Source: Cytophagales bacterium | Lineage (GTDB): Bacteria; Bacteroidota; Bacteroidia; Cytophagales; Cyclobacteriaceae | Assembly: GCA_016124425.1 (NCBI GenBank) | Contig: WGNT01000015.1 | Coordinates: 1-64,000, forward strand | Length of the DNA stretch: 64,000 nucleotides | Direction of reading: 5' to 3' | Part shown: positions 6,137 to 26,015 of the stretch, one piece after another | How the letters are laid out: the number at the start of each line of letters is the position of its first letter | Position numbering within the stretch: position 1 is the stretch's first letter | Notes under the pieces: model-generated | Told to the model about the DNA's origin: nothing | The model's input: only the letters and a program-made list of their open reading frames with translations | The model's database searches: none | Made by a program: the position numbers and the translations under genes

Positions 6137-6168
6137 GTGTTCGATGTTTAGCCAAAATAACAGTGAGT

Positions 6169-9100
6169 ATGAAAAAAATCTTACCGAGTTTATTTGCGTT
6201 GTTCTTTGTAATAATTGCAAATAGTGCTTTCGCCCAATCGATTACGGTCAGTGGTACCGTATTTGATGAAAATCAGGCCCCTTTGCCCGGGGTTAGCATT
6301 TTGATTAAGAATTCTTCTTCAGGTACAGTTACGGACTTGGATGGAAAGTATCAGTTAAGTGTACCTGCCGGAAATTCGGTTTTGGTTTATTCCTTTCTTG
6401 GCTATTTTAAGCAGGAGGTCACCGTAGGAACGCAAACAACCATTGATGTTAGTTTGCAGGCAGATATGAGTGACCTAAGCGAAGTTGTCGTGGTTGGCTA
6501 CGGGGATCAGCGAAGAATCAATCTAACAGGTTCCGTAGAATCTATTTCCGGAGCAGCGATTTCGAGGCAGCCGGTGTTTCAGGCCTCGCAGGCTTTGGTG
6601 GGTATGTCTCCAGGATTGACGGCCATTCAGTCAAGTAGCCGTCCGGGTGCGGATGGTGCCACATTACGGGTAAGGGGCACCGGGTCGCTTGGCGCATCCA
6701 ATGATCCGCTGATTCTTATTGATGGTATTCAGGGGGATATTAATGGCATAGATCCGGCCGATATAGAAACTATTTCCGTGCTGAAAGATGCCGCAGCATC
6801 ATCAATTTATGGTTCTAGGGGGTCCAATGGTGTTATCCTTGTAACTACAAAGCGGGGAAAACAAGGAGTGATGACCGTTTCATACAACGCGTATGCCGGC
6901 TGGCAGGAACCTCAAACGCTCCCTACTTATCTAGGAGCTATCGACTTTTTGAGAGCAACCAACAGGGATGAAGCTGTCATTGCAAATTACCAGCAAAATA
7001 TGGCGACAAATCCAGATGTGTATCCAGATACAGATTGGATGGGCTTGCTTTTTTCGGAAAATGGCTTTCAGCAATACCATAACCTCCGTGTAAACGGAGG
7101 AACAGAAAACATACAGCTGGCGGGGTCTATTTCTTATACTGACCAAGGCGCCAATGTGGTTAATTATAATTTTAAGCGGTATAATGGAAGGTTTAACTCT
7201 GACATCAAGATTAACGAAAAATTCAATGTCGCTTTTGATTTAAATTTTAGCCAAGAATTGACCACAGAGCCTAATTCCAGTTTAAATGCTATCTTTTTGG
7301 ATGCGTATCGAATTGACCCAACGCAAGTGGCTGTCCATTCAGATGGCTCTTGGGGAGACGGTTGGAGTGGTCAAAATCCTATAGCCCATGCCAACGACGG
7401 TGGTTTGAACCGCAACCAGAACAATTATTTTAGAGGCTTGATGCGTGTGAACTATCAACCAGTGAAAGATTTAAATGTAAGCCTAACATACTCTCCAGAG
7501 TACAGGGATGTTTTCGACCGGAATTTTAATAAAATGTACACCACAATATTGGATTGGGATTCTAAATCTACCAGAAACGTACCGGATCGAAATTCCCTCA
7601 GCAATACCAATACAAGGATATTCGAAGATAACCTTATAGGACTAATTACTTACAGCAAGGCGTTCAGAGACCATCAATTTACGATACTTGGCGGCTATGA
7701 AATGATCAAATCCAATTGGACTCAGTTTGGTGCGTCCAGAACAGATTTTATCATTGATCGATTTGAGCAGTTGAACGCAGGTGCAGAAACTAATATGAGA
7801 AATAGCGGTAGTGCCACCCACTCCAGTTTGGAGTCCTACTTTTCTAGGTTTAACTATTCCTATCAAGATAAATACCTTTTTGAGGCAAATGTAAGAAGAG
7901 ATGCTTCATCGAGGTTTGCTCCTGAAAATAGGGTTTCCATATTTCCCTCCTTCTCGGCAGGATGGCGTTTGACTGAGGAAGCCTTCTTTAGTCCGCTTGA
8001 CTTCTTTACCGAATTTAAACTGAGAGCTTCTTGGGGAAGATTAGGTAACCAACAAATCGGTAGTGATTTTCCTTACACATCTAATATCTTGTTGGGAGCT
8101 TCTAATTTCATTTTCGGCAATACGGTATCTACAGGTGCGGCACAGAATGTCTTAGCGAACAGGGGCATAAGATGGGAGTCAACGGAAACCGCTAACATAG
8201 CATTGGATGCAGGATTGATTAATAACAAACTGACCTTTACGGTGGAATATTATGTGAGAACAACCAATGATATCTTATTAGCCTTGCCTGTACCCCGTGT
8301 AGTAGGCTTGAGTGCTCCGCTTCAAAATGCCGGATCTGTTGAGAATAGGGGAGTTGATTTTTCCATGAACTGGCGAGACGCAATTGGTGAATTTAATTAC
8401 AGTGCCAACATTAACTTTTCCGATGTGAGGAATAGGGTAATGAATTTGGCAGGTTTGGGTCAGATAATTAGTGGAAATTCAATTACTACAGTAGGAAGCC
8501 CTATAGGTTCTATATTCGGATACCAATCAATGGGATATTTCCAAAATCAAGAAGAAATCACCAATTCACCCAACCAATTTGGCGCTTTGATACCTGGAAA
8601 CATTAGGTATGTAGATCAACTCACCGTCGATGCTAATGGAGACGGAATAGATGACTCATCCGATGGCGTAATTAATCCGGATGACAGGGTTATTCTTGGT
8701 GATCCATTTCCCCGATACAGCTACGCACTAAACTTAAATGCAGATTTTAAGGGATTTGATTTTTCGATTCTATTTCAAGGTGTTGGAAAGAGGGATTTAT
8801 TATTACAAGGCGATGCGATAATGCCGCTGTGGAATGCCGGTAAAATACAAGAATGGCATGTAGAAGATTCGTGGACACCTCAAAATCCAAATGCGAGGAT
8901 TCCTGTGCTAGCGCCGACGAGTTCTGGTAGTAATGATGCAAGATCTACGGATGTATGGGTATTTGATGCGTCGTATTTAGCTATTCGAAATCTTAGTATT
9001 GGATATAACTTTCCTACCTTCAAAGATAGGCTTAAGGCCAGGAACTTGAGAATTTATACGGCCATACAGAATTTGGCCAATTTCAACCGACTTCCTCCTG

Positions 9101-9189
9101 GAACGAACCCACTTACACCAAACGGTAGTTCTGGTGCCATATTTCCAATTGCCAGGGCCTATACTTTTGGTGCAAGTTTAACCTTCTAA
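6169..9189 (+). CDS. susC: SusC/RagA-family TonB-linked outer membrane transporter
   Basis: 1,006 residues. The ATG at 6169 gives a proper signal peptide (MKKILPSLFALFFVIIANSAFAQ); a GTG two codons upstream also reads in frame but is less likely. Domains in order: carboxypeptidase D regulatory-like domain (about 25-100), the TonB-box-like EVVVVGYG (105-112), plug domain with the SusC signature GSRGSNGVILVTTKRG (about 215-230), then the beta-barrel to the C-terminal strand ending in TFGASLTF. It imports oligosaccharides across the outer membrane with its SusD partner, using TonB energy. susD follows after 13 bases, so the two are translated from one mRNA. This is the normal length for the family. 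The glycan cannot be deduced from it. Confidence 0.95.
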   Translation: MKKILPSLFALFFVIIANSAFAQSITVSGTVFDENQAPLPGVSILIKNSSSGTVTDLDGKYQLSVPAGNSVLVYSFLGYFKQEVTVGTQTTIDVSLQADMSDLSEVVVVGYGDQRRINLTGSVESISGAAISRQPVFQASQALVGMSPGLTAIQSSSRPGADGATLRVRGTGSLGASNDPLILIDGIQGDINGIDPADIETISVLKDAAASSIYGSRGSNGVILVTTKRGKQGVMTVSYNAYAGWQEPQTLPTYLGAIDFLRATNRDEAVIANYQQNMATNPDVYPDTDWMGLLFSENGFQQYHNLRVNGGTENIQLAGSISYTDQGANVVNYNFKRYNGRFNSDIKINEKFNVAFDLNFSQELTTEPNSSLNAIFLDAYRIDPTQVAVHSDGSWGDGWSGQNPIAHANDGGLNRNQNNYFRGLMRVNYQPVKDLNVSLTYSPEYRDVFDRNFNKMYTTILDWDSKSTRNVPDRNSLSNTNTRIFEDNLIGLITYSKAFRDHQFTILGGYEMIKSNWTQFGASRTDFIIDRFEQLNAGAETNMRNSGSATHSSLESYFSRFNYSYQDKYLFEANVRRDASSRFAPENRVSIFPSFSAGWRLTEEAFFSPLDFFTEFKLRASWGRLGNQQIGSDFPYTSNILLGASNFIFGNTVSTGAAQNVLANRGIRWESTETANIALDAGLINNKLTFTVEYYVRTTNDILLALPVPRVVGLSAPLQNAGSVENRGVDFSMNWRDAIGEFNYSANINFSDVRNRVMNLAGLGQIISGNSITTVGSPIGSIFGYQSMGYFQNQEEITNSPNQFGALIPGNIRYVDQLTVDANGDGIDDSSDGVINPDDRVILGDPFPRYSYALNLNADFKGFDFSILFQGVGKRDLLLQGDAIMPLWNAGKIQEWHVEDSWTPQNPNARIPVLAPTSSGSNDARSTDVWVFDASYLAIRNLSIGYNFPTFKDRLKARNLRIYTAIQNLANFNRLPPGTNPLTPNGSSGAIFPIARAYTFGASLTF

Positions 9190-9202: not shown

Positions 9203-10927
9203 ATGAAAAAATATATAAACTCTCTTTTATTTGTGCTTTTTCTAGGCGCATGTAATTCTGATTTGTTGGACTTGGAATCGTTGACTGAACCAACCGATGC
9301 GACGTTTTTCTCAAACGAAGAGGAGCTTGACCTGGCTTTGACCGGGGTATACAACTCTTTAATTTGGTTGGGAGGATACGCGCTTCCCGTACAAGTTAAT
9401 ATGGATAATGGAGCTACCGACATTGGACTGGTTAGGGGAGGCTTTAGTAGTTTTGACGAGCTTGGAGCTGGCTCGCATAGTGCCAATAGCGGGGGGTTTC
9501 TTAGCGTTTATACCCACATGTACAGAGGTATCGGTCGGGCCAATAACCTGATTAATAATTTAGACAGGGCAGCAGATGTGGTTCCAGCTGAACGATTAAA
9601 TCAGATCAAATATGAAGCTATAGTCTTACGCTCCTATTATTACCACTATCTGGTATTTCTGTTTGGCGATGTGCCTTATACAGAAGATGTAATCGCTAAT
9701 CCATTGGATGCTTTATTGCCAAGGGTAAACCAAGAGGAGATAATTGACAAACTATTAGCTGATTTGCAGGAAGCTGCGCAGAATTTACCTGCTACTGCAA
9801 CGGAGAAAAACCGCGTTTTTAGAGATGTTGCACTTACATTACATGCCAGAATTGCGCTATATGCTGGAAGGTATAGAGATGCCGCTACCTCCTCCCAAGC
9901 AGTAATTAATGGAGGCAACTTAACCTTACATTCTGATTACGAACAGTTGTTTACGCCCCAAGGCGAAGGCTCAGCAGAAGCTATTTTGGCAATGCCTTTT
10001 ATGGATGGGTTTGGTTCATTGCCGCAGTTTCCGACAGCCCAAGGTTCAAGAAATTTTGGATCCTTTAGTGTTGTCATTCCAACGCAATCAATGATCGATA
10101 GCTATGAAGCTACTGATGGTCTTCCTATTGATGAGTCGGCGATATACGACCCGAAGAGACCCTTTGACAACAGAGATCCCCGATTGAAGGCATCCATCAT
10201 TACGCCTCAGAGCGAGTGGGGTGGGATTATCTTTGAAAGCCACCCCGACAGTATGCAGGTGCGGAACGCGAATGGATCCATAAGGGGAAGAAATAACGAT
10301 TCAAGAAAGGTTATTTGGCCAGCAGCATTCTGTGGCTACCTTTGGAAAAAATATACGAACGAAGACTCCCAAATGATTAATAGGGGATGGAGCGACACAG
10401 ATTTTGTCTTGATGCGGTATGCAGAGGTGTTGTTAACCTATGCAGAAGCCAAAATCGAGCTCGGTGAAATTGATGCTTCCGTACACGACGCACTCAACAG
10501 AGTAAGGGCCAGAGCATATGGGGTACCTGTTGGTGCTACGGGCAGTTATCCTGCTGTAACCTCCACGGATCAATCATTTTTGAAAACGTTGATCAAACGA
10601 GAACGGAAAGTGGAATTTGCAAACGAAGGTTTTCGCCTTTTTGATATCAGACGATGGAATATCGCGGAAAAAGTGATGCCGGTCGTGTTATACGGAAGAA
10701 TATTGGATCAGGCTAACGCCCAGCATATTCCTTCAATTGATGAAGACGGTTTTGTATCCTATGCCGGTATCGAATCGCAATATGATCGCAATACGGATGC
10801 TAGGTTCCCGAATGCGATTCGCGTATTTTCGAATCCAAGAGATTACTTGCTTCCTATACCACAAGCTGAAATAGATACCTATAGAGCAAACGGAGCTACA
10901 ATTACCCAAAACCCGGGCGGATATTAA
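9203..10927 (+). CDS. susD: SusD/RagB-family glycan-binding lipoprotein
   Basis: 574 residues, lipoprotein signal with lipobox GAC (Cys17), followed by the family N-terminus LDLESLTEPTDATFF. The first half contains the TPR-like helical bundle (REANNLINN-like and YYHYLVFLFGDVPYTED motifs around 135-160). The C-terminal half has the SusD_RagB signature with LMRYAEVLLTYAEAKIELG and FANEGFRLFDIRRW, and ends in LLPIPQAEI...NPGY, so it is complete. It caps SusC at the cell surface and binds the glycan. It belongs to the same operon as susC. A long hairpin follows within 30 bases of its stop and may separate susCD expression from the downstream enzyme genes. Confidence 0.95.
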   Translation: MKKYINSLLFVLFLGACNSDLLDLESLTEPTDATFFSNEEELDLALTGVYNSLIWLGGYALPVQVNMDNGATDIGLVRGGFSSFDELGAGSHSANSGGFLSVYTHMYRGIGRANNLINNLDRAADVVPAERLNQIKYEAIVLRSYYYHYLVFLFGDVPYTEDVIANPLDALLPRVNQEEIIDKLLADLQEAAQNLPATATEKNRVFRDVALTLHARIALYAGRYRDAATSSQAVINGGNLTLHSDYEQLFTPQGEGSAEAILAMPFMDGFGSLPQFPTAQGSRNFGSFSVVIPTQSMIDSYEATDGLPIDESAIYDPKRPFDNRDPRLKASIITPQSEWGGIIFESHPDSMQVRNANGSIRGRNNDSRKVIWPAAFCGYLWKKYTNEDSQMINRGWSDTDFVLMRYAEVLLTYAEAKIELGEIDASVHDALNRVRARAYGVPVGATGSYPAVTSTDQSFLKTLIKRERKVEFANEGFRLFDIRRWNIAEKVMPVVLYGRILDQANAQHIPSIDEDGFVSYAGIESQYDRNTDARFPNAIRVFSNPRDYLLPIPQAEIDTYRANGATITQNPGGY

Positions 10928-11070: not shown

Positions 11071-11599
11071 ATGAATAAAATGGATTGGGAAAGAAAGAAG
11101 ATGGAGGTACTAAGAAGCATGGTAATTCTTCTTCAGGCTTGCTTACCTTTATTCTCCTGTGATAAACCAAATGAGATTCAATCCCTGCCAAACGTTATCG
11201 TCATTCTTGCCGATGACATGGGATATTCGGACCTAGGTGTTATGGGTTCTGAAATATCCACGCCCAACTTGGATGAGTTGGCTAACAATGGAATTTTGTT
11301 TACAAATTGCTACAATACACCACGGTGTAACCCCTCAAGGGCGAGCTTACTGACAGGCATGTATGCCCACAACGTCGGAATCGGTCACATGGACGAGAAT
11401 TTTGGTGTTCCATCGTATCAGGGCTTCATTCACTCATGCGGAAAATTGGGAGCTGTACGATCTTAAGGAAGATCCCTATGAATCTAATGAGTTGAAAGAT
11501 TCATAACCAATGGTAAAAGATAGTCTTATACAGAGGTGGAATCAGTGGGCTTCCATATCAGGAGTTGAACCGTGGCCGCTCAGAACCACAGGTCAATAA
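11071..11599 (+). pseudogene. Decayed sulfatase: N- and C-terminal remnants joined by an internal deletion
   Basis: The intact start encodes a signal sequence ending in LFSC, the sulfatase opening NVIVILADDMGYSDLG, and the formylglycine motif CNPSR with TG (Cys at 11326-11328), then the expected MYAHNVGIGHM. After about 125 codons this frame stops. In another frame, from about 11438, the C-terminal end of a sulfatase appears: AENWELYDLKEDPYESNELK, a TAA at 11504-11506 where family members usually have an Asn, then PMVKDSLIQRWNQWA and GVEPWP. Thus roughly 350 central codons are missing, the join shifts frame, and the tail has a nonsense codon. Members normally have 450-600 residues. It lies in the PUL between susD and the next enzyme gene. 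An alternative ATG at 11101 fits the signal sequence better than 11071. Confidence 0.85.
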
Positions 11600-11649: not shown

Positions 11650-14529
11650 ATGCTTAATTCGATTACTAGTTTATTCATAATGATATTTCTGATTCCGTTA
11701 GAAGGACTTGTTCTCTATGGTGCCCGCTATTCAGGAGATGAAAGGGATGTTTTTTTGATTGAAAACCAAGCGTATGCCATATCCGAAAGCGAAGGCGGCG
11801 CAAAAGTCGGAGACTGGATTGTTCGAAGAAAAGATGATGTAGTGGTTACTGGAAAGATTTCCAGCACCTTTACCGTATTCTACTCAAGCCAAGACCCCAA
11901 CTACGGCTTTGGAAAGCGAGCAACCGGTGGTTCACCCGTTGCCAACTGGGGAGAGGGAGAAATAAACGTTTGGAAGAGCGAACAACTTGTCGAATTGTCG
12001 CCGACAGGTTTTCAGGTGGATGGAAACACCATTCGAATTGCCTATGCTGAAAATGAACTTTTCAACTTCTCAGCATCTATTTTATTAGCCGACGGAGCAG
12101 GCGCGCCGCTTATTTCTTGGAATATAGCTTCAAAAACGAAGGGGTATTTTGCGGTTGTTTATACTGGCTTGGAGGAGAGGGAACCCGAAAAGTTGGATTT
12201 TCTTTATCAGCCTTTGATTTGGTCCTGGAAGCGGTTTCCCGATCAGGCCGTACTTACACCTGAATCCTATGCAACTACCCCTGCAGTATTTACCACGCAG
12301 GATGAGCTTACAGAAGGATTAGCTATTCCCGCAGGGGAAATTCCTTTTCGATTCGCAACGGCAAGCAACTCAAGGTTTGGCTTGATGCTTCGTACCAACG
12401 CGGGTACGGCCAAACCCATGGTGATGGCCCCCTTATTTGGAGGTAACGAGTCTTTTTTGGAAAAAGGTGACAGTCATCGTTTTTCCAATCGGTATTTTTT
12501 AAAATCGGGGACGTGGACCGAAGGAGTTGACTATCTGTACGAAGAAGTAATGGAATACCCATTGGAAAGGCAAAATGCCATGGTTTCGCTCAACGAAACC
12601 TTCCATAATATGATCGACCTTGCCATGGACGATTATTATTCCGGCTGGGTAAACGAATACAAAGGATATGATTATAAGTTCGACGCTCCAAGTACCGTAA
12701 AAAATGTTTCGGCCATTCACCCACTTAGCCTGGCGTTTACCACTGATAACCGACAAATATATGACCGCCGAGGCTTACCCATGCTGGAGTACCTAATGTC
12801 ACGGGAAAAATACCTCTATGCCATCAATGCGTTACCGGAAAAGCAAACGCAAAATCCCTCGCACTTCCTAAAGGGCCCGGCGATGGAACTGTGGGAAATG
12901 GCAAGCATACACCGACTACTTGGTGAGAACAATACTGCGATTCCGAAAGAAATGGAACGTCTGTTCGGCAAAAGCCGACAATTAAACTTAGAGACAGAGG
13001 TAAGTGGGGCAAGCTGGAAAGACTACCTTGCCAGGTATTTGGTAAACCATGGTCAAGAATACCTAGACTCGGCTATCCTTTTGGCAGACGAATACCTGGA
13101 CTTGACCTTTTATCATTACCCATCCGACTTTTCTACAAATGCCGGCCTTAGAGATGCCCAAGCCACATTCGTCAATGATTATTCCACTACATGGCAGGAG
13201 TTGTTGGAATTATATGAACTTACCCAAGACAAGAAGTACCTGGACGCAGCCTATGAAGGAGCAAAACAACTTTCGCTCTGGACCAGGTCAACCCCATTTG
13301 CTCCTGACAAATCCATTACCGTAAACGAAGGTGGAAAGGTAGAGGGCATTTTTCCAGGGAGAAGATTTAAGCCGGACGGTTATGAATGGCAGGAATTTGA
13401 CATGACAACCCATATTCAAGAGCAGGTTGTACCCGCATGGCATACGTCACTGGTGGGTCTACTTCCAGAACAGCCCGGGACCTACGTTTACGGTCCAATC
13501 ATGCTGTTTCATCAAGCGGGCGCCATGTTACGGCTAGCACACCTCAAACAGGATGAAACGCTTAAAAAAATTGCATATAATGGGATTTTAGGCAGATACA
13601 ATAACTTCCCGGGCTATTACTTCACCTCTCTGTTTACCAATGTCTATCAGCAAACTACCTATCCACTCCATGAATATTTGGATATCAAATACAATGCTGT
13701 TTTTTACAATCACCTATGGCCCCACATTGCCTTAATTCAGGATTTTTTGGTTAGTGATGCGTATTACAGATCCGGGGGACAGATAGATTTTCCATCATTG
13801 TTTTCGCCCGGATACGCGTTTCTTTCCAATAAAGTGTATGGTCATGCCCCGGGAAAAATATATGGAAATGACAATGTCAGCTTATGGTTACCCAAAAATG
13901 CGCTAAGAACAAGTCAAAAAGCATTTAATCATTTGTTAGGCAGGGATGGTGAAAACACCTTTCTGGTTATTATGAACACAGCTCCCACTGCAATTAGCGA
14001 CATTATTCATCTCAACCAAGACGTATTTCGCTGGGATGTTGGAAGGGAATATACCTATGAGATTTTGGAGGGTAATCGTTCTGAAGGTGATCATAAACTT
14101 TTAAACGGAAATTTATCTGTTCAAATAGCTCCAAATGGAATTGCCGTTTTCAAAATCAAAGAACTGAATCCCTTACAAAATTTAATAGCCAAACGTAAAA
14201 CTGAAGCGCTTTCTGAACCCGGCGTTGGAAGTTATTTTAGAAAGGATTATTCCGTAGGTGGGATTGGAACATTGACCGGAATGCGGTTACAAGGCATTGA
14301 GAAGCTTAAGGATTTCTATATTTATAGTAGTTCCACGGAAGATAATGTATCACATGTGCGATTAATTTATCAGATTGGTGACGAAGAGTGGCAGGAAATA
14401 GCCGATAAAAGTTATCCCTTCGAATTCAGTTTGAGGGTAGAAAACAACGATTCTCCCGTAAAATTCAAGTGGAAAGCTACAGACCTGAAGGGAGCTTCCC
14501 ATGAATCCGAAGTTTTTGAATTACGATAA
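11650..14529 (+). CDS. Large secreted protein with predicted alpha/alpha-toroid domain, function unknown
   Basis: 959 residues with an N-terminal hydrophobic segment (MLNSITSLFIMIFLIPLEGLVLYG) acting as signal peptide. Residues about 25-310 are beta-rich. About 330-790 is helical with repeated aromatic hairpins (FHNMIDLAMDDYYSGW, TWQELLELYELTQDKKYLDAA, GAMLRLAHLKQDETLKKIAYNG), as in six-hairpin glycosidases and polysaccharide lyases. A beta domain (about 790-845) and a C-terminal Ig-like domain (about 865-959) follow. The C-terminal part of the helical domain matches the 863-residue protein at 26020-28611 in the same locus (RSGGxIxFP, then YGxAxGxIxG), so the two are distant homologues. The next gene starts 4 bases after its stop. 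An enzymatic role on the PUL glycan is likely; the reaction is not known. Confidence 0.7.
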   Translation: MLNSITSLFIMIFLIPLEGLVLYGARYSGDERDVFLIENQAYAISESEGGAKVGDWIVRRKDDVVVTGKISSTFTVFYSSQDPNYGFGKRATGGSPVANWGEGEINVWKSEQLVELSPTGFQVDGNTIRIAYAENELFNFSASILLADGAGAPLISWNIASKTKGYFAVVYTGLEEREPEKLDFLYQPLIWSWKRFPDQAVLTPESYATTPAVFTTQDELTEGLAIPAGEIPFRFATASNSRFGLMLRTNAGTAKPMVMAPLFGGNESFLEKGDSHRFSNRYFLKSGTWTEGVDYLYEEVMEYPLERQNAMVSLNETFHNMIDLAMDDYYSGWVNEYKGYDYKFDAPSTVKNVSAIHPLSLAFTTDNRQIYDRRGLPMLEYLMSREKYLYAINALPEKQTQNPSHFLKGPAMELWEMASIHRLLGENNTAIPKEMERLFGKSRQLNLETEVSGASWKDYLARYLVNHGQEYLDSAILLADEYLDLTFYHYPSDFSTNAGLRDAQATFVNDYSTTWQELLELYELTQDKKYLDAAYEGAKQLSLWTRSTPFAPDKSITVNEGGKVEGIFPGRRFKPDGYEWQEFDMTTHIQEQVVPAWHTSLVGLLPEQPGTYVYGPIMLFHQAGAMLRLAHLKQDETLKKIAYNGILGRYNNFPGYYFTSLFTNVYQQTTYPLHEYLDIKYNAVFYNHLWPHIALIQDFLVSDAYYRSGGQIDFPSLFSPGYAFLSNKVYGHAPGKIYGNDNVSLWLPKNALRTSQKAFNHLLGRDGENTFLVIMNTAPTAISDIIHLNQDVFRWDVGREYTYEILEGNRSEGDHKLLNGNLSVQIAPNGIAVFKIKELNPLQNLIAKRKTEALSEPGVGSYFRKDYSVGGIGTLTGMRLQGIEKLKDFYIYSSSTEDNVSHVRLIYQIGDEEWQEIADKSYPFEFSLRVENNDSPVKFKWKATDLKGASHESEVFELR

Positions 14530-14533
14530 TTTT

Positions 14534-17350
14534 ATGAAAAAAGCTATAAAAACTTCTATATCGCTGGTTTTCCTACTCCTCTATTTTGGAATTGGGTTCC
14601 CTCTACCTGCCCAAACGGAATTTTCTTTAAACGGCACATGGCTGTTCAAAACGGACCCCAATAATCTTGGGGAATCGGAGGAGTGGTTCCGTACCGACCT
14701 AAATCGTGACGGATGGGATAGTATGGACGTGCCGGGAAACTGGGATTTGCAAAATGAATATGCCCATTTTGTGGGAAAGGGGTGGTACAGTAAAACGTTT
14801 ACACTCCCATCAGCGTGGGATACTAAGGCCATTATCCTAAATTTTGAGGCTGTTTATCATGATTGTACGGTTTGGCTCAACGGGAAAAAATTGGGGGAAA
14901 ACAATTCAGGCTTTTTGCCTTTTGAGTTTGATCTTACCGATCTCCTTGTTAATGGACGAGAGAATACAGTTACTGTCTGTGCGGATAACACCTTTAAAAG
15001 AGGGGCAATTTGGAATTGGGGAGGGATCAGGAGATCGGTAAAACTGAGTGCCTATGATGGATTTAGAGTTACCCGTCAACATATCACTCCAACTGTGAAC
15101 TTGGAAAAAATGGAGGCTGAGGTAAGCGTCCGGTTATTTCTGGAAAACTTTCTACCTGAGTCTTCAATGGCTGAGGGGGAAGTGCTGCTTACTTCAGGTA
15201 CCGGCTATAGGCATGTCTTACCCTTTTCCACGACAATTCCCCCAAACGGTAAAAAGGAAATTCTGCTAAATACCAAACTCAAAAAGAGAGATGTTCACTT
15301 TTGGCATTTTGACGATCCTTTTCTTTATAAATCTTCCATCACATTTAAAGGCCGGGAGAAAGAAGCTCTCGTTAATTCCTTTGGGCTGAGGAAAATTGAA
15401 TTGGATGCGGAAAATTATAGACTTTTGCTAAATGGGGAATCCGTTCGGTTAATGGGGCTAAATTTCGTTCCGGATGCTAGGACCACCGGAAATACGTTGC
15501 CGCTTTGGCAGATCAAGAAAGATGTGGATATCTTCAAAAGTTTAAACGGCAATTTTGCTAGGATGTCGCATCTGCCCTTACCGGAGGAAATGCTGGATTA
15601 CCTCGATCAACGGGGAATCTTAATCATTTCGGAAATCCCACTCTGGGGATTTGACGCCTTGGCAAATCCTGATAATGATGTTCCTTTTGATTGGTTAAAG
15701 AGGCTAGTGGCTTTACAATACAATCATCCCTCCGTAATAGGTTGGAGCACGGGCAATGAGTTGGGACATTTCCCTGAGGCGGACGCTTATGTCGAGAAAA
15801 GCATTGCGTATGCCCGAGAACTTGACAGTACACGAATGGTTACCGCGGTTTCCCATATGGCTCATTTAGAAGGAGATTACCTCAAATATTCAGACATGGG
15901 CCTAATCAACAAATACGGCAAGAACCTGGCACCGACGACTCGTCTACAACATGCTAATATCCCGAACAAGATACTCTTTTACAGCGAATATGGCATTGCC
16001 CAATTCGGAGAAGGATTAGATGCAACCTTTGAAATCAAGCCCCTTTTGGACTCCCTAAGAAATTTTCCTTATCTGGTGGGAGCCTCCATTTGGACCTACA
16101 ACGACTACCGAAGTAGCTATGACGGTACTCAAGAGTTTTCTGAAAACCGACCTTGGGGGGTAGTGGATGTCTATAGACGGAGAAAACAAGCTTTTTATGA
16201 TCTTCAACAAGAACACGCACCTGTTAGGGAAATGCGGGTAACTGTCTCCTCCAAAACGGCCAATGTCACGGTGTTGCCTAGAACAGTGCTGGATTTGCCT
16301 GCCCATTCTGTTGAAGATTATAAAATCATCTACCAGCTTTTGGATTCTGAGGGAAATGCCCTGGAAGGTGGGATTATAAATCTTCCTTTCCTTCTACCGG
16401 GCGACAACCCGTTGAGCATGGCGATTGATTGGAAAACGGAGGGCGCACATGCATTAAAAGTTTCCCTTTTGACTCCCCAAATGGATGCTGTCTTGGACAA
16501 GGTAATTTATTTCAAAAAGCCTGCCGAAAAGGTGCAATTCACTGCGTCTGGCGGGAGAACCCTTCACAACAGGATAGCCCCAAAAACAGGAGGAATACGG
16601 GTTTTCTATGATAAAATCCCACATGCCACCCATTATAAGTTGAAGTATGGAAGAGATGGGATGGTTGCTGAAACCGCACCCAGTAGGGAAGTGTTTTTGG
16701 ACATTGATAGTTTGGACATTGACCAAAGCTACCAAATTCAGGTGGTAGCTGTCAATGCCGTTGGGGAATCTCTTTCTGAACCTATGATGGTACATGTAAA
16801 TCCCCGCCATTTCCTACCACCCGGTGTTCGCCATGTAGAGGCAACCGATAAAGGATTTTTTGTGGGATACGCATCGGATGAAATGGATTTTCTATATAGA
16901 ACGAGGTACCGAGACGAAAAGGGAGAAGAAAAAATCATCCAATCCCGAACTCCCGGACTGATGTCAGTCAGCGGTCTTGAAAACGGAAAATCCTATTCCT
17001 TCGAAGTGCAGCGGGTGATGAATAACAATTCGAACAGCCTTTGGAGTCAGACCTATACAGTGATACCTGATGGAGGTCAAAAACCTGCTATGCCAAGAAT
17101 GAAAGGGGTTTTTCGCGATGGGATAGAAGCAATGATTACTTTTGATCCGATTCCCAAAGCGACAGGATATAAAATTCAATACAGAGAATCCGAAAGCAAA
17201 GAGGTGGATTGGACTTCCATGTTTTTGAACCGAGCAGAGGTATATATTGGCCGAATAGCTGATCTGAAACCTAACCGAAAGTATGACTTTCGAATGGCCG
17301 CAATCAATGAAAACGGGACCTCCGACTATACTAACGTAATCCAACAATGA
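14534..17350 (+). CDS. Secreted glycoside hydrolase family 2 enzyme with three C-terminal Fn3 domains
   Basis: 938 residues. The ATG at 14534 is chosen because it gives a signal peptide (MKKAIKTSISLVFLLLYFGIGFPLPAQ); an upstream in-frame ATG overlaps the previous gene. Domains: jelly-roll sugar-binding domain (about 25-190; NWDLQNEYAHFVGKGWYSKTF), Ig-like domain (about 190-285), TIM barrel (about 285-575) with acid/base Glu409 in STGNELG and nucleophile Glu485 in YSEYG, then three fibronectin type III domains (about 660-760, 765-850 and 855-938). GH2 members are retaining beta-galactosidases, beta-glucuronidases, beta-mannosidases and relatives; the substrate cannot be chosen here. The stop overlaps the next ATG by 4 bases, so translation is coupled. 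Confidence 0.9.
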   Translation: MKKAIKTSISLVFLLLYFGIGFPLPAQTEFSLNGTWLFKTDPNNLGESEEWFRTDLNRDGWDSMDVPGNWDLQNEYAHFVGKGWYSKTFTLPSAWDTKAIILNFEAVYHDCTVWLNGKKLGENNSGFLPFEFDLTDLLVNGRENTVTVCADNTFKRGAIWNWGGIRRSVKLSAYDGFRVTRQHITPTVNLEKMEAEVSVRLFLENFLPESSMAEGEVLLTSGTGYRHVLPFSTTIPPNGKKEILLNTKLKKRDVHFWHFDDPFLYKSSITFKGREKEALVNSFGLRKIELDAENYRLLLNGESVRLMGLNFVPDARTTGNTLPLWQIKKDVDIFKSLNGNFARMSHLPLPEEMLDYLDQRGILIISEIPLWGFDALANPDNDVPFDWLKRLVALQYNHPSVIGWSTGNELGHFPEADAYVEKSIAYARELDSTRMVTAVSHMAHLEGDYLKYSDMGLINKYGKNLAPTTRLQHANIPNKILFYSEYGIAQFGEGLDATFEIKPLLDSLRNFPYLVGASIWTYNDYRSSYDGTQEFSENRPWGVVDVYRRRKQAFYDLQQEHAPVREMRVTVSSKTANVTVLPRTVLDLPAHSVEDYKIIYQLLDSEGNALEGGIINLPFLLPGDNPLSMAIDWKTEGAHALKVSLLTPQMDAVLDKVIYFKKPAEKVQFTASGGRTLHNRIAPKTGGIRVFYDKIPHATHYKLKYGRDGMVAETAPSREVFLDIDSLDIDQSYQIQVVAVNAVGESLSEPMMVHVNPRHFLPPGVRHVEATDKGFFVGYASDEMDFLYRTRYRDEKGEEKIIQSRTPGLMSVSGLENGKSYSFEVQRVMNNNSNSLWSQTYTVIPDGGQKPAMPRMKGVFRDGIEAMITFDPIPKATGYKIQYRESESKEVDWTSMFLNRAEVYIGRIADLKPNRKYDFRMAAINENGTSDYTNVIQQ

Positions 17351-18468
17351 TGCAGTTTTTCAAACATATCGTATTTGCACTGGCTGGGTTGACTGCTTCA
17401 ATCCCCTTATTTACTGAACCAAACCTTTTCCTAGATACTGATCTAGAAAACAGAGAATTGGTGAAGCAGGTAGAAACGGATTCCATCCGGTACGAGTTGT
17501 GGCGAATAGATGCCGACAATGGCACACCCGAGCAATACATGGCCGAAATCTTCACACCCGTCTGTTATTCCAATAAGTGTTATCCCGTTTTTATAAATTT
17601 TTATTGGGACCTACTTGGGAATTTCCAGTACTTCGAAATGCCGCAAGGAAAAACCTTGACAAAGCTGGACCACCTGCCTTTTGAGCCCGAAGATTATAAA
17701 AAAATGCAAAAGATACTGGCAAATACCTCATCTTTACTTAAAGACTACAAGGCTGAGGATTTGGTGGTCAGTACAGAAAGTGACCTTCCTTACGGCGTAG
17801 ATGCCGTAACAGGAGCTACCTCCAAAACCATTCAGAATGAAGTGATCTCCGGCGCGGTCTATTCCTGCTATACCTTATGGCACCTGGCCCACGGGGATAT
17901 TGCTTCCTACATAGCGGCGCTAACGGAAGAAAATGTTGACGACTTGTTATTGATTTCGTTTCTTGAAAGCACTAATTATCATTACCAATATTGGGCAATA
18001 GACAAGGTATTGACTGCCAACCGGTGGGATGAAGCAAAATTTGAAACACCTCTGTTACAAATCATCAGAGGAGACAATCTCTTTGTTGCCGAACATGTGT
18101 TGGAAACTATGCCTGATAAGGTCTGGAAAAAAGCATCCACCCAACACTGGCTTTGGGAGAGCTATCTTTCTGCTCCATACCGGCTGCAACTAAAGATTCT
18201 AGACAAGCTCCAGCGCATCGATCTTGATCCTTCCCTCCATTTTCCGCTTGCCGCACAGCTGGAACACGCAAACCAAGAGCAAAAGAAGCGGATTTTTTTG
18301 GTGTTGGCTCAGGAATCAACGCTGACCAAGGAAGCACAGCAGGCATTGATCCCCTACTTGACTGACAGTAAGTGGAGGGGAATTGCGCATGGCATCCTAT
18401 CCTCCCAACGGAAACCGGAAAAGAACGTGACTGCTGCAATTAGTCAATTGAAAGAAGGGACAAACTGA
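17347..18468 (+). CDS. Secreted protein with FMN-attachment (ApbE-target) motif and helical C-terminus
   Basis: 373 residues. The start overlaps the GH2 stop (ATGA), which fixes it, and gives a hydrophobic signal region (FFKHIVFALAGLTASIPLF). Residues 152-158 read DAVTGAT, matching the Dxx(S/T)GA(T/S) consensus at which ApbE couples FMN to the final Thr/Ser in RnfG, NqrC and other FMN_bind proteins; Thr158 would carry the flavin. The preceding 100 residues (with CYSNKC at about 76-81) are beta-rich, compatible with an FMN_bind-like fold. Residues about 190-365 are helical repeats of HEAT or Armadillo type. No apbE gene is in the window. Between a glycosidase and a FAD oxidoreductase, a role as a periplasmic electron carrier is a reasonable but untested inference. 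Confidence 0.65.
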   Translation: MMQFFKHIVFALAGLTASIPLFTEPNLFLDTDLENRELVKQVETDSIRYELWRIDADNGTPEQYMAEIFTPVCYSNKCYPVFINFYWDLLGNFQYFEMPQGKTLTKLDHLPFEPEDYKKMQKILANTSSLLKDYKAEDLVVSTESDLPYGVDAVTGATSKTIQNEVISGAVYSCYTLWHLAHGDIASYIAALTEENVDDLLLISFLESTNYHYQYWAIDKVLTANRWDEAKFETPLLQIIRGDNLFVAEHVLETMPDKVWKKASTQHWLWESYLSAPYRLQLKILDKLQRIDLDPSLHFPLAAQLEHANQEQKKRIFLVLAQESTLTKEAQQALIPYLTDSKWRGIAHGILSSQRKPEKNVTAAISQLKEGTN

Positions 18469-18495: not shown

Positions 18496-20316
18496 ATGAG
18501 AAAAGCCATTTTAGTAGCAGGAATATTCCTTTGCACCTTTTGGGCAAAAGCCCAACAGCGCGTATTTGTAGAAGCAGAATCCTTCGATCAGGTAGGAGGC
18601 TGGGTGGTAGACCAACAATCTTTTGATGTACTCTATTCCTCCTACCTCATGGCACATGGCATGGGGAGACCAGTCGTAGATGCATCGACCAAGGTTGACT
18701 TCCCAAAAAAAGGTGTGTATCATGTATGGGTACGCACCAAGGACTGGGCACCGTTTCCGAAAGGTCCCGGTGAATTCAATGTGCTGATCGATGAAAAGCC
18801 CTTGGATCGAGTCTTTGGTGCCGATGGATCGGATGAGTGGCAGTGGTATTATGGTGGCAGCAGGGAGATATCCGAAGAGACCGTTACCATATCACTCAAA
18901 GACCTTACGGGATTTAACGGGAGAGTGGATGCCATCTACTTCTCCACCGATAAGCAGGATGTACCTGTAAACGATCATAAGGAACTTTTGGCCTTTCGGA
19001 AAAAAATGCTGAACCTGACTGATGGACCTATAGATGCGGGAGAATTTGATTTGGTTGTAGTTGGAGGTGGGATTGCTGGAACCGCAGCGGCGATTTCGGC
19101 AGCAAGAATGGGGTTGAAAGTGGCGCTAATTCAAAACAGACCGGTGCTTGGCGGAAACAATAGTTCTGAAATCCGAGTGCATTTGATGGGAAACATAGAC
19201 CAGAATCATTATCCTCGGCTTGGCCGAATTGTTCGGGAGCTTGATAACGGAGACCCGGGGAACGGAAATCCGGACGGAGACCGCTACGGAGATAAGCGTA
19301 AGATGGAAGTTGTAAAAGCAGAACCAAACATCACCCTTTACCTCAACACCCATGTATATATGGCTGACATGAAAGGTAACAGAATCATGTCGGTCGTGGG
19401 CAGGAATATAAAGACCAATCAGGAATATAGTTTCCGTGGAACCTATTTCTCCGACTGCACAGGTGATGGGACCCTGGGCTATTTGGCCGGTGCGGAGTAT
19501 AGAATGGGGAGAGAAAGCCGTTCGGAGACAGGAGAATCCTTAGCAGCTGAGGTTGCGGATGATTTTACCCTTGGAACTTCAAACCTATGGGCATCCCTAC
19601 CAAAAGATCAACCCTCGGATTTTCCTGCTACTCCTTGGGCAATTCAGTTTTCCGATGAATACCATATCGATGACCATAAGGCAGACTGGCAGTGGGAGAC
19701 TGGATTTGGCAATTTCAATACCATCTATGAAGCCGAACAGATCCGCGACCACAACTTACGCGCGATTTTCGGAAATTGGTCCTACCTAAAGGAAAATAAG
19801 CCGGAAAAGTATAGCAACCATGAGCTTGCTTGGGTGGCTTATATTGGCGGAAAAAGGGAATCAAGAAGACTTATGGGTGACCACGTACTGACGCAAATGG
19901 ATATTCAGGACGGGATCAATTACCCCGATGGCTGCGTAACTGCGACCTGGACAATAGATCTTCATTTTCCGGATGAAAGAAACTCAAACTACTTCAAAGG
20001 AGAAGAATTCTTTGCGGCAACAAAGCATATTAAGGTAAAACCATATACCATTCCATACCGAAGCCTTTATTCCCGAAATATTGAAAATCTATTTATGGCA
20101 GGAAGAAACATCAGCACCACCCATGTTGCCTTTGGCAGTACCCGTGTGATGCGGACCTGTGGTATGATGGGCGAAGCTGTAGGTTATGCTGCTTTTGTTT
20201 CCAAATTGAAAGGGTGTAATCCGCGCGAAGTGTATACCGACCACTTGGATGAGTTTATGGGCATAATTTCGTCACCGACCAATATCTTCGAGTTTCCCAT
20301 AATCCCCAGAAACTAA
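18496..20316 (+). CDS. Secreted FAD-dependent oxidoreductase with N-terminal beta-sandwich
   Basis: 606 residues with a Sec signal peptide (MRKAILVAGIFLCTFWAKAQ) lacking twin arginines. Residues about 20-155 form a beta-rich, carbohydrate-binding-like domain (VFVEAESFDQVGGW, YHVWVRTKDW). Then follow the Rossmann dinucleotide motif VVVGGGIAGTAAAISAAR (about 184-201), RPVLGGNNSSEIRV, the flavin-contact motif DCTGDGTLGYLAGAEYRMG and, near the C-terminus, MAGRNISTTHVAFGSTRVM. This places it in the FAD_oxidored (PF12831-type) family. It is a paralogue of the protein at 23715-26015, which has no signal. Likely reaction: flavin-dependent oxidation of a sugar or a sugar-derived polyol in the periplasm. 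The flavin must be acquired after export, since nothing suggests Tat. Confidence 0.85.
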   Translation: MRKAILVAGIFLCTFWAKAQQRVFVEAESFDQVGGWVVDQQSFDVLYSSYLMAHGMGRPVVDASTKVDFPKKGVYHVWVRTKDWAPFPKGPGEFNVLIDEKPLDRVFGADGSDEWQWYYGGSREISEETVTISLKDLTGFNGRVDAIYFSTDKQDVPVNDHKELLAFRKKMLNLTDGPIDAGEFDLVVVGGGIAGTAAAISAARMGLKVALIQNRPVLGGNNSSEIRVHLMGNIDQNHYPRLGRIVRELDNGDPGNGNPDGDRYGDKRKMEVVKAEPNITLYLNTHVYMADMKGNRIMSVVGRNIKTNQEYSFRGTYFSDCTGDGTLGYLAGAEYRMGRESRSETGESLAAEVADDFTLGTSNLWASLPKDQPSDFPATPWAIQFSDEYHIDDHKADWQWETGFGNFNTIYEAEQIRDHNLRAIFGNWSYLKENKPEKYSNHELAWVAYIGGKRESRRLMGDHVLTQMDIQDGINYPDGCVTATWTIDLHFPDERNSNYFKGEEFFAATKHIKVKPYTIPYRSLYSRNIENLFMAGRNISTTHVAFGSTRVMRTCGMMGEAVGYAAFVSKLKGCNPREVYTDHLDEFMGIISSPTNIFEFPIIPRN

Positions 20317-23714: not shown

Positions 23715-26015
23715 ATGAATATGATAAAGCAAGACGGTGTTTCCAAAAAAAGGGAATTGAATGAAAAGCGGATTGAATCGGATCTTGTTGTCGTTGGCGG
23801 AGGGATGGCGGGAACCTGCTGTGCCATCACGGCTGCAAGGGCGGGAGTACGGGTAACTTTGGTGCAGGACCGGCCTGTGTTGGGCGGAAACGCGTCTTCG
23901 GAGATACGGTTATGGATTTTGGGTGCCACATCCCATATGGGAAACAACAACCGCTGGTCGAGGGAAGGGGGCGTCATTGATGAGATATTGGTTGAAAATA
24001 TCTACAGAAATCCGGAAGGAAACCCGCTGATCCTGGATACCATCTTGTTGGAAAAGGTTTCTTTGGAGCCAAACATCAAACTCCTCCTAAATACAGCGGT
24101 ACACGACCTCACTAAAATCGGTGATGATCAGATTGAGCAAGTACATGCTTTTTGTAGCCAAAATTCTACAAGTTATATATTGCATGCACCGCTTTTCGTC
24201 GACGCTTCCGGAGATGGTATTTTGGGATTTTTGGCCGGTGCTGCATTTAGAATGGGGGCCGAAACATCCGACGAATTCGACGAAGCTTTTGCCCCAGACC
24301 ATGGCTATGGGGAACTGCTAGGCCATTCGTTGTACTTTTACAGCAAAGCGACGGATAAGCCGGTTCGTTTTGTGTCTCCTTCTTACGCACACAAGTCGCT
24401 TACCACGCTACCCCGATTCAAAAGCTTTAACCTCAAAGACCATGGATGTCGGTTATGGTGGGTCGAGTACGGAGGGCGTATGGACACCATTCATGAAAGT
24501 GAAACCATTAAATGGGAACTATGGAAAGTGATCTACGGGATTTGGGATCACCTCAAAAATTCAGGGGAATTCCCTGATATGGCTAACCACACCCTCGAAT
24601 GGGTGGGAACGATTCCCGGAAAGCGGGAAAGCCGCCGATTTGAGGGCGACTATATGCTGCACCAAAAAGACGTGGTAGAACAACGTGAACATGCGGATGC
24701 AGTTTCCTTTGGCGGGTGGGCGCTTGACCTGCATCCGGCAGATGGCGTCTATGGGGATAAACCCGGATGTACCCAGTGGCATTCGAAAGGGGTATATCAG
24801 ATTCCTTATCGTACCATGTACAGCCGCAACATCAAAAATCTCTTCTTGGCAGGGAGAATCATTAGCGCCAGTCATGTCGCTTTTGGATCGTCACGGGTTA
24901 TGGCCACTTGTGCACACAACGCGCAAGCGGTGGCGATGGCGGCAAAAATCTGCCTGACCCAAGGACTTGCTCCAAGGGATATTTCTGACGGCAATTGGAT
25001 CAAATTACTTCAGAGAGAACTGCTAAAAACAGGACACTACATCCCAAAACTGCGGCTAGATGATCCTGAAGATATGGTGCAGCACGCGGTCATTAGCGCC
25101 TCATCCACCTTTCAGCTCCGGGAATTACCTGCTGATGGTCCTTGGAAGCACCTCGAGTTTTCCATGGCTCAGCTAATCCCCTTCCCAGCGGGAAAGCTTT
25201 CCCCGATAACAATCCCCGTTCGATCCGCGGAACCCACCACTGTTCACCTGCAGCTGCTCGCATCTTCCAAGCCCGGAAATTTTACTCCGGACAGGGTATT
25301 AAGCGAACTGTGGATTCCTGTGGGTGTCGGTGAGCAGCGTATTAAGCCCGTTTTTGACTATACACTTGCCGAACCTGGCTATCTCTTCCTGGCTTTTCAA
25401 GCCAATTCCTCAGTAGAAGTAAAGTGTACCGAAAGCAGGGTAAGTGGCCTGCTCTCGGTTTTTCAGAAATACAACAAGGCCGTCGCAGTAAGCAGCAGGC
25501 AGGAACCACCTGCAGGCATTGGCATTGAGACCTTTGATTTTTGGCTTCCGGAGCGCAGGCCTGCTGGTCACAACATGGCGTTTTTACTGGATAATGCGCT
25601 GGATATCTTTCCCATTCAACACCTTACCAATGGAATTTTCAGACCAACCGAGTTATCCAACTGTTGGGTGGCTGATCCTAAAGACAACAAACCTATATTG
25701 GAGATTACATGGAGTCAGCCTCAGTCCATCATCGACATAAAGTTGTTTTTTGATGCCGATGCTGATCATCCCATGGAGTCTTCTCTGATGGGTCACCCGG
25801 AAAGCGAAATCCCCTTTTGTGTCAAATCGTACCAAATCAAAGATGATGCAGGCAAGCTCCTTCATAGGGAGGACCATAACCACCAAAGTATTGGGAGAAT
25901 TCATTTCGATGAACCGATAAGCACAAGCAGTCTCACGATTGAATTTGGGAAAAAATTGGATAATGTTCCTGTTTCTCTTTTTGGAATAACCTGCCACGGC
26001 AAAACCTTACTTTAA
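23715..26015 (+). CDS. Cytoplasmic FAD-dependent oxidoreductase with C-terminal beta domain
   Basis: 766 residues, no signal peptide or membrane segment. The Rossmann motif LVVVGGGMAGTCCAITAAR is close to the N-terminus (about 24-42), followed by RPVLGGNASSEIRL, DASGDGILGFLAGAAFRMG and the C-terminal flavin motif AGRIISASHVAFGSSRVM. These match the secreted paralogue at 18496 almost element by element. The FAD part ends near residue 440; residues about 450-766 are beta-rich and look like two sandwich domains, the last one discoidin-like. It begins 27 bases after the symporter gene and ends 4 bases before the next gene, so it is within the operon. Probable role: oxidation of the sugar brought in by the symporter; the substrate is not known. 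Confidence 0.82.
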   Translation: MNMIKQDGVSKKRELNEKRIESDLVVVGGGMAGTCCAITAARAGVRVTLVQDRPVLGGNASSEIRLWILGATSHMGNNNRWSREGGVIDEILVENIYRNPEGNPLILDTILLEKVSLEPNIKLLLNTAVHDLTKIGDDQIEQVHAFCSQNSTSYILHAPLFVDASGDGILGFLAGAAFRMGAETSDEFDEAFAPDHGYGELLGHSLYFYSKATDKPVRFVSPSYAHKSLTTLPRFKSFNLKDHGCRLWWVEYGGRMDTIHESETIKWELWKVIYGIWDHLKNSGEFPDMANHTLEWVGTIPGKRESRRFEGDYMLHQKDVVEQREHADAVSFGGWALDLHPADGVYGDKPGCTQWHSKGVYQIPYRTMYSRNIKNLFLAGRIISASHVAFGSSRVMATCAHNAQAVAMAAKICLTQGLAPRDISDGNWIKLLQRELLKTGHYIPKLRLDDPEDMVQHAVISASSTFQLRELPADGPWKHLEFSMAQLIPFPAGKLSPITIPVRSAEPTTVHLQLLASSKPGNFTPDRVLSELWIPVGVGEQRIKPVFDYTLAEPGYLFLAFQANSSVEVKCTESRVSGLLSVFQKYNKAVAVSSRQEPPAGIGIETFDFWLPERRPAGHNMAFLLDNALDIFPIQHLTNGIFRPTELSNCWVADPKDNKPILEITWSQPQSIIDIKLFFDADADHPMESSLMGHPESEIPFCVKSYQIKDDAGKLLHREDHNHQSIGRIHFDEPISTSSLTIEFGKKLDNVPVSLFGITCHGKTLL

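Follow-up and report, generated by a model that had tools for sequence, protein, structure and literature searches.

Why should a locus equipped for the uptake and hydrolysis of a glycan encode an exported protein bearing the signature of covalent flavin attachment? The question is raised by a 64,000-nucleotide stretch from a Cytophagales bacterium (assembly GCA_016124425.1, contig WGNT01000015.1, positions 1 to 64,000 of the forward strand; hereafter, the window), in which a gene for a candidate covalent flavoprotein of 373 amino acids (17347..18468, + strand) lies within a polysaccharide utilisation locus, next to a gene for an exported flavin adenine dinucleotide (FAD)-dependent oxidoreductase of the PF12831 family (18496..20316, +; E 1.2e-80), its near-constant partner. 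Our analysis indicates, with a probability of about 0.72, that the candidate represents a new family of substrates of the flavin transferase ApbE, whose role in polysaccharide utilisation loci is to carry electrons for a periplasmic FAD oxidoreductase. A preliminary description of the window had proposed such a flavinylated carrier, and this interpretation is supported by the conservation of the motif, the near-universal pairing with PF12831, the linkage to ApbE and an RnfG-like structural model, from which we infer the flavin mononucleotide (FMN) adduct.

Translation of positions 17347-18468 confirmed that residues 152-158 of the candidate read D152-A-V-T-G-A-T158 (17800..17820, +). This is a motif of the ApbE type, for which the rule D-x-x-[S/T]-G-A-[S/T], with a Thr or Ser acceptor, has been established (PMC12052999); T158 is the presumed FMN acceptor. 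The gene arrangement described earlier holds as well: the open reading frame (ORF) of a GH2-family hydrolase ends at 17350 and thus shares four bases (ATGA, 17347-17350) with the candidate gene, whose stop at 18468 is followed, after 27 bases, by the oxidoreductase ORF starting at 18496. The predicted export of the protein is supported by a hydrophobicity heuristic, which finds a hydrophobic N-terminus suited to export in the candidate and in 115 of its 123 homologues. Behind this export signal or anchor, the protein comprises an FMN_bind-like N-terminal domain (residues ~30-195) and an ARM/HEAT solenoid tail (196-373). Profile searches of Pfam and NCBIfam with the candidate protein gave no match, and a PDB sequence search with it returned nothing useful. 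The candidate combines three features of the ApbE-flavinylated class, namely the motif, an ApbE gene in the same genome and, by the same heuristic, an export-like hydrophobic N-terminus.

A scan of genome contigs with the candidate protein as a single query found no match, whereas an alignment-based scan recovered 148 related stretches, of which 80 were kept. The family comparison set consists of 123 distinct homologues after removal of duplicates, all from Bacteroidota. The matches kept include hosts such as Cyclobacterium, Runella, Spirosoma, Dyadobacter, Larkinella, Chitinophaga, Parapedobacter, Olivibacter and Draconibacterium, among others, the closest homologue among them being that of Lunatibacter salilacus (Cyclobacteriaceae; 68% identity). 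Homologues, sometimes in multiple copies, are present in 37 of 196 genomes of the candidate's own taxonomic family, and the family is rare in an even sample of the phylum (8 of 395 genomes); a plasmid collection yielded two distant matches with uninformative annotation. All 123 homologues share, without exception, the six residues D152, A157, T158, C73, C78 and G91, and W87, L104, H109, F112 and Y172 are kept in 121 or 122 of them. The conservation of D152, T155 and T158, proposed earlier as a check, thus stands for the first and last of these residues and fails for position 155, which is T in 57 homologues, S in 39, A in 25 and G in 2; position 156 is G in 110. Loss of the motif among homologues, which would have refuted the earlier proposal, was not observed. 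The strict motif occurs in 83 of the 123 family members versus 2 of 1546 non-family ORFs of the same loci. Invariance within the family together with rarity outside it indicates that the FMN-carrying part of the motif is under strong selection.

Two groups of homologues deserve mention in their own right. Members from Runella, Spirosoma, Larkinella and Dyadobacter (loci L109-L145) have Ala at the fourth motif position (DAKAGAT), fall outside the accepted D-x-x-[S/T]-G-A-T rule and often have an ApbE of their own; they constitute a natural test of ApbE specificity. In addition, a 590-residue member (L055:1-1770 and L161:9364-11133) continues, after the flavin domain and helical part, into a predicted CBM9-like carbohydrate-binding domain, which directly ties the carrier to glycans.

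The partner is a near-constant feature of the family. By ORF calling, a PF12831 gene is the immediate same-strand neighbour in 116 of the 123 loci, and in 117 once L156 is included, where the oxidoreductase gene had been overlooked by the calling procedure and was recovered on checking; in locus L168, it lies two genes away. The median gap between the two genes is 10 bases. As the partner lies downstream of the carrier in 67 loci and upstream in 49, the pairing has survived rearrangement. Carrier and partner evolve in step: the mirror-tree correlation between them is 0.83, against a permutation maximum of 0.13, and in the subset of loci with SusD, the carrier-oxidoreductase correlation reaches 0.86 versus 0.45 for carrier and SusD. 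The abundance of PF12831 proteins does not account for the association, given that the source genome encodes nine full-length PF12831 proteins and a single carrier, with only one of the nine genes directly beside it. Export-type N-termini were found in 95 of 116 partner oxidoreductases; outside PF12831, the partner shows only a short Rossmann match to PF00890. No member fused to an oxidoreductase was seen among the homologues, and cytochromes sought beside the other PF12831 genes of the source genome showed no clear pattern. In some Dyadobacter loci (L152:7315-12295 and L158:7125-12223), a single ApbE gene separates two pairs of carrier and oxidoreductase genes.

Linkage to the flavin transferase itself provides a further line of evidence. 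An ApbE gene (PF02424) belongs to the gene run of the carrier in 27 of the 123 loci, 24 times in the order carrier-oxidoreductase-ApbE and three times with ApbE just before the carrier; in one more genome (G345), a further ApbE gene lies directly upstream of a carrier, to judge from the coordinates. Each of the 49 carrier genomes tested encodes ApbE, compared with 257 of 390 genomes of the phylum, although this excess is inflated by kinship. No FMN_bind match was found in 32 of the 49 carrier genomes, and 13 of these 32 also have neither DUF3570 nor DUF2271. Of the families tested, the carrier family alone is left as a candidate substrate in these 13 ApbE-bearing genomes. The source genome has a single, membrane-anchored ApbE, encoded elsewhere, indicating that the transferase is available in trans; it also has an Nqr operon. 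In Parapedobacter and Olivibacter (L218:3265-7658; L219, L220 and L221), the only ApbE of the genome resides in another cluster, flanked by a Gfo/Idh/MocA-like gene with a Tat signal and a second gene whose signal is similar; no protein with an [S/T]GA[S/T] motif is encoded near it, and its natural substrate may be the carrier family.

Structural modelling is consistent with a flavin-binding domain. The AlphaFold2 model of the full-length candidate (mean predicted local distance difference test score, pLDDT, 90.9) upholds the helical-repeat tail noted earlier, with residues 196-373 matching ARM/HEAT solenoids (Z about 13). Because such repeats filled the full-length fold search and masked the N-terminal domain, this domain was modelled alone (pLDDT 85). 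Its two best VIA-align matches are RnfG chains, 7zc6_G (Z 7.1, root-mean-square deviation (rmsd) 4.0, 126 residues aligned) and 9eri_G (Z 6.3, rmsd 4.3, 130 aligned). Two NqrC chains appear as well: 4xhf_D (Z 5.0, rmsd 4.2, 129 aligned) and, at 128 aligned residues, 8evu_C (Z 4.6, rmsd 3.9). The RnfG and NqrC matches span the whole domain, whereas most others cover the beta sheet only. In the model, the invariant C73-x4-C78 pair (17563..17580, +) flanks the turn of a predicted beta hairpin whose strands span residues 61-74 and 77-87, an arrangement that suggests a disulfide.

Comparison with characterized systems places the candidate close to, yet apart from, each of them. It shares with RnfG and NqrC (FMN_bind, PF04205) an ApbE-type motif with a Thr acceptor and an extracytosolic location, judging from its export-like N-terminus, and the predicted fold of its N-terminal domain may be similar over the whole length (Z 7.1 and 5.0). 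It differs from them in the absence of a PF04205 match (a few relatives show sub-threshold matches: of 59 N-terminal domains, 11 match at E <=1, with a best E of 0.038), in the invariant CxxxxC hairpin and ARM/HEAT tail, and in its position in a polysaccharide utilisation locus beside PF12831 rather than in an Rnf or Nqr operon, the NqrC of the genome being encoded elsewhere. DUF2271 and DUF3570, experimentally demonstrated ApbE substrates (PMC8238504), are likewise extracytosolic, and it was an ApbE neighbour together with a conserved [S/T]GA[S/T] motif that revealed them as substrates; the candidate has no Pfam match to either and differs from both in length, in gene neighbours and in genomic setting. 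Flavinylated fumarate and urocanate reductases also place a covalent FMN domain beside an FAD oxidoreductase outside the cytosol, as we propose for the candidate with its putative FMN, but they pair the FMN-binding domain with an FAD domain of the PF00890 type, whereas here there are two proteins, a PF12831 partner and a glycan setting, and the electrons probably flow in the opposite direction. In periplasmic sugar and alcohol dehydrogenases, cytochrome c subunits connect an exported FAD dehydrogenase with the respiratory chain by relaying its electrons. The carrier is proposed to play the same role, with flavin in place of haem: the haem-binding CxxCH motif is absent from carrier and partner and almost absent among their neighbours.

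These comparisons suggest how the system might operate. ApbE would attach FMN through a phosphoester bond to T158 of the RnfG/NqrC-like domain in the periplasm, and the ARM/HEAT tail would dock partners, perhaps binding the exported oxidoreductase. The carrier would then exchange electrons with the adjacent PF12831 enzyme, whose substrate would be a sugar unit of the glycan that the locus processes, so that electrons would pass from the FADH2 of the oxidoreductase to the FMN of the carrier and on to the respiratory chain. Oxidation of a sugar is favoured because the locus serves glycan uptake and hydrolysis and most of the named hosts are known as aerobes. Under this scheme, a sugar of the polymer or of an oligosaccharide would be oxidized, perhaps to a keto-sugar that is subsequently cleaved by elimination. 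Whether such a respiration-linked oxidative step, built from an exported FAD oxidoreductase and a covalent-FMN carrier of the new family that delivers electrons to the membrane, is widespread in glycan degradation by Bacteroidota is, in our estimate, an evenly balanced proposition.

Several results weigh against the flavinylated-carrier interpretation. As to the anticipated flavin fold, RnfG and NqrC lead the matches over the whole domain with modest scores only (Z 4.6-7.1), the top value of 7.1 is one that models lacking any clear match also attain, and a Foldseek search with the N-terminal domain gave no significant match. As a Z near 7 can arise without kinship, the resemblance is supportive rather than conclusive. 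Model confidence is low (pLDDT about 52) in the loop that leads into the motif. An hhalign similarity to FMN_bind (38.6% probability) vanished when the motif was masked; being carried by the motif alone, it was rejected as evidence of homology. One fifth of the homologues have A or G at the fourth motif position. No ApbE gene is found near the candidate in the window, nor in the gene run of 96 of the 123 loci, and the kinship that inflates the genome-level ApbE excess counts on the same side. Five homologues lack a PF12831 neighbour: two of these carriers (L167 and L171) adjoin a DPPIV peptidase and an efflux system, with a hidden oxidoreductase absent on checking, and the same check beside the carriers of L078, L163 and L170 found none. 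Finally, no membrane electron acceptor was recognized alongside the carrier.

The motif-only similarity to FMN_bind and the poorly modelled preceding loop would also fit a DxxTGAT-like sequence that is not flavinylated at all, but marks a structurally conserved turn in an adaptor that serves the FAD oxidoreductase without carrying flavin. We consider this improbable, given that the acceptor Thr and its Ala and Asp are invariant, that ApbE joins the gene run in 27 loci, that in 13 genomes with ApbE none of the three known substrate domain families was found and that RnfG is the top structural match. Equally improbable, in our judgement, is a maturation or assembly factor that delivers FMN to the partner or controls its redox state through C73 and C78 instead of carrying electrons. 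The placement of the invariant cysteines, where a disulfide could form, and an ARM/HEAT tail suggestive of a binding protein would suit such a factor; yet the disulfide may be purely structural, and the ApbE-linked FMN domains of known role are electron-transfer subunits (PMC8238504, PMC11334425).

A reversal of the electron flow, with the FMN carrier feeding membrane electrons to the FAD oxidoreductase for the reduction of an extracellular substrate, deserves slightly more credit than these two explanations, but is still unlikely. The loci contain genes for glycan uptake and hydrolysis, not for respiratory reductases, and the aerobic habit of most named hosts argues in the same direction. Among pairings of a covalent FMN domain with an FAD enzyme, the best studied is indeed fumarate-reductase-like (PMC8238504), and many flavoproteins, flavocytochrome c fumarate reductases among them, give weak matches to the Rossmann region of the partner; nonetheless, the partner is a PF12831 protein that resembles PF00890 only over a short Rossmann segment.

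The surroundings of the carrier gene are those of a polysaccharide utilisation locus, as defined by a SusC/SusD pair accompanied by carbohydrate-active enzymes (GH2 and sulfatase). A SusC-like TonB-dependent transporter (6163..9189, +; clustering with PF07715/PF13715 proteins) and a SusD-like glycan-binding protein (9203..10927, +; clustering with PF07980/PF14322 proteins) are followed by a cut sulfatase, a 959-residue protein, a GH2-family glycoside hydrolase with FN3 domains (14501..17350, +), the candidate, its PF12831 partner, a sulfatase (PF00884; 20437..21900, +) and a sodium:solute symporter (PF00474; 21957..23687, +), the last of which recurs in 51 of the 123 homologous loci. Beyond the symporter, the locus continues with a second PF12831 oxidoreductase, away from the flavoprotein and without an obvious signal peptide (23715..26015, +), an 863-residue protein and an F5/8-type C protein. 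The cut sulfatase (11071-11466) retains the first 131 amino acids (profile positions 1-73 of 301), with a stop before the next ORF; since a sulfatase ORF occupies the corresponding position after SusD in three relatives (L034-L036), it appears to be a decayed copy or the product of an assembly break. The 959-residue (11650-14529) and 863-residue (26020-28611) proteins have no Pfam, NCBIfam or PDB sequence match, but about half of the homologous loci encode relatives of them, and they are probably unclassified carbohydrate-active enzymes. Genes of the Gfo/Idh/MocA and xylose-isomerase-like TIM-barrel types are occasional neighbours of the carrier genes, a hint that would fit sugar oxidation.

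Respiration, iron uptake and extracellular electron transfer all provide known examples of covalent flavin carriers. The mechanism envisaged here, attachment of FMN by ApbE, is of a known type, whereas the family is new to Pfam and NCBIfam. In its available part, the genome survey of flavinylation (PMC8238504) lists FMN-binding domains, DUF2271 and DUF3570 as substrates without mention of polysaccharide loci, and the carrier family was not met among the substrates in the available parts of that survey and of PMC11334425. In the open-licence literature, we found no paper linking polysaccharide loci with flavinylation and no description of the carrier family. If the proposed role is correct, it would provide a function for the common but unexplained secreted PF12831 enzyme of polysaccharide utilisation loci and would explain some of the orphan ApbE genes. 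It would also become testable whether Bacteroidota open sulfated and other resistant glycans by redox chemistry, in addition to hydrolysis and elimination. The pairing of the carrier with a secreted oxidase-like enzyme suggests that many Bacteroidota wire the extracellular breakdown of glycans into electron transfer.

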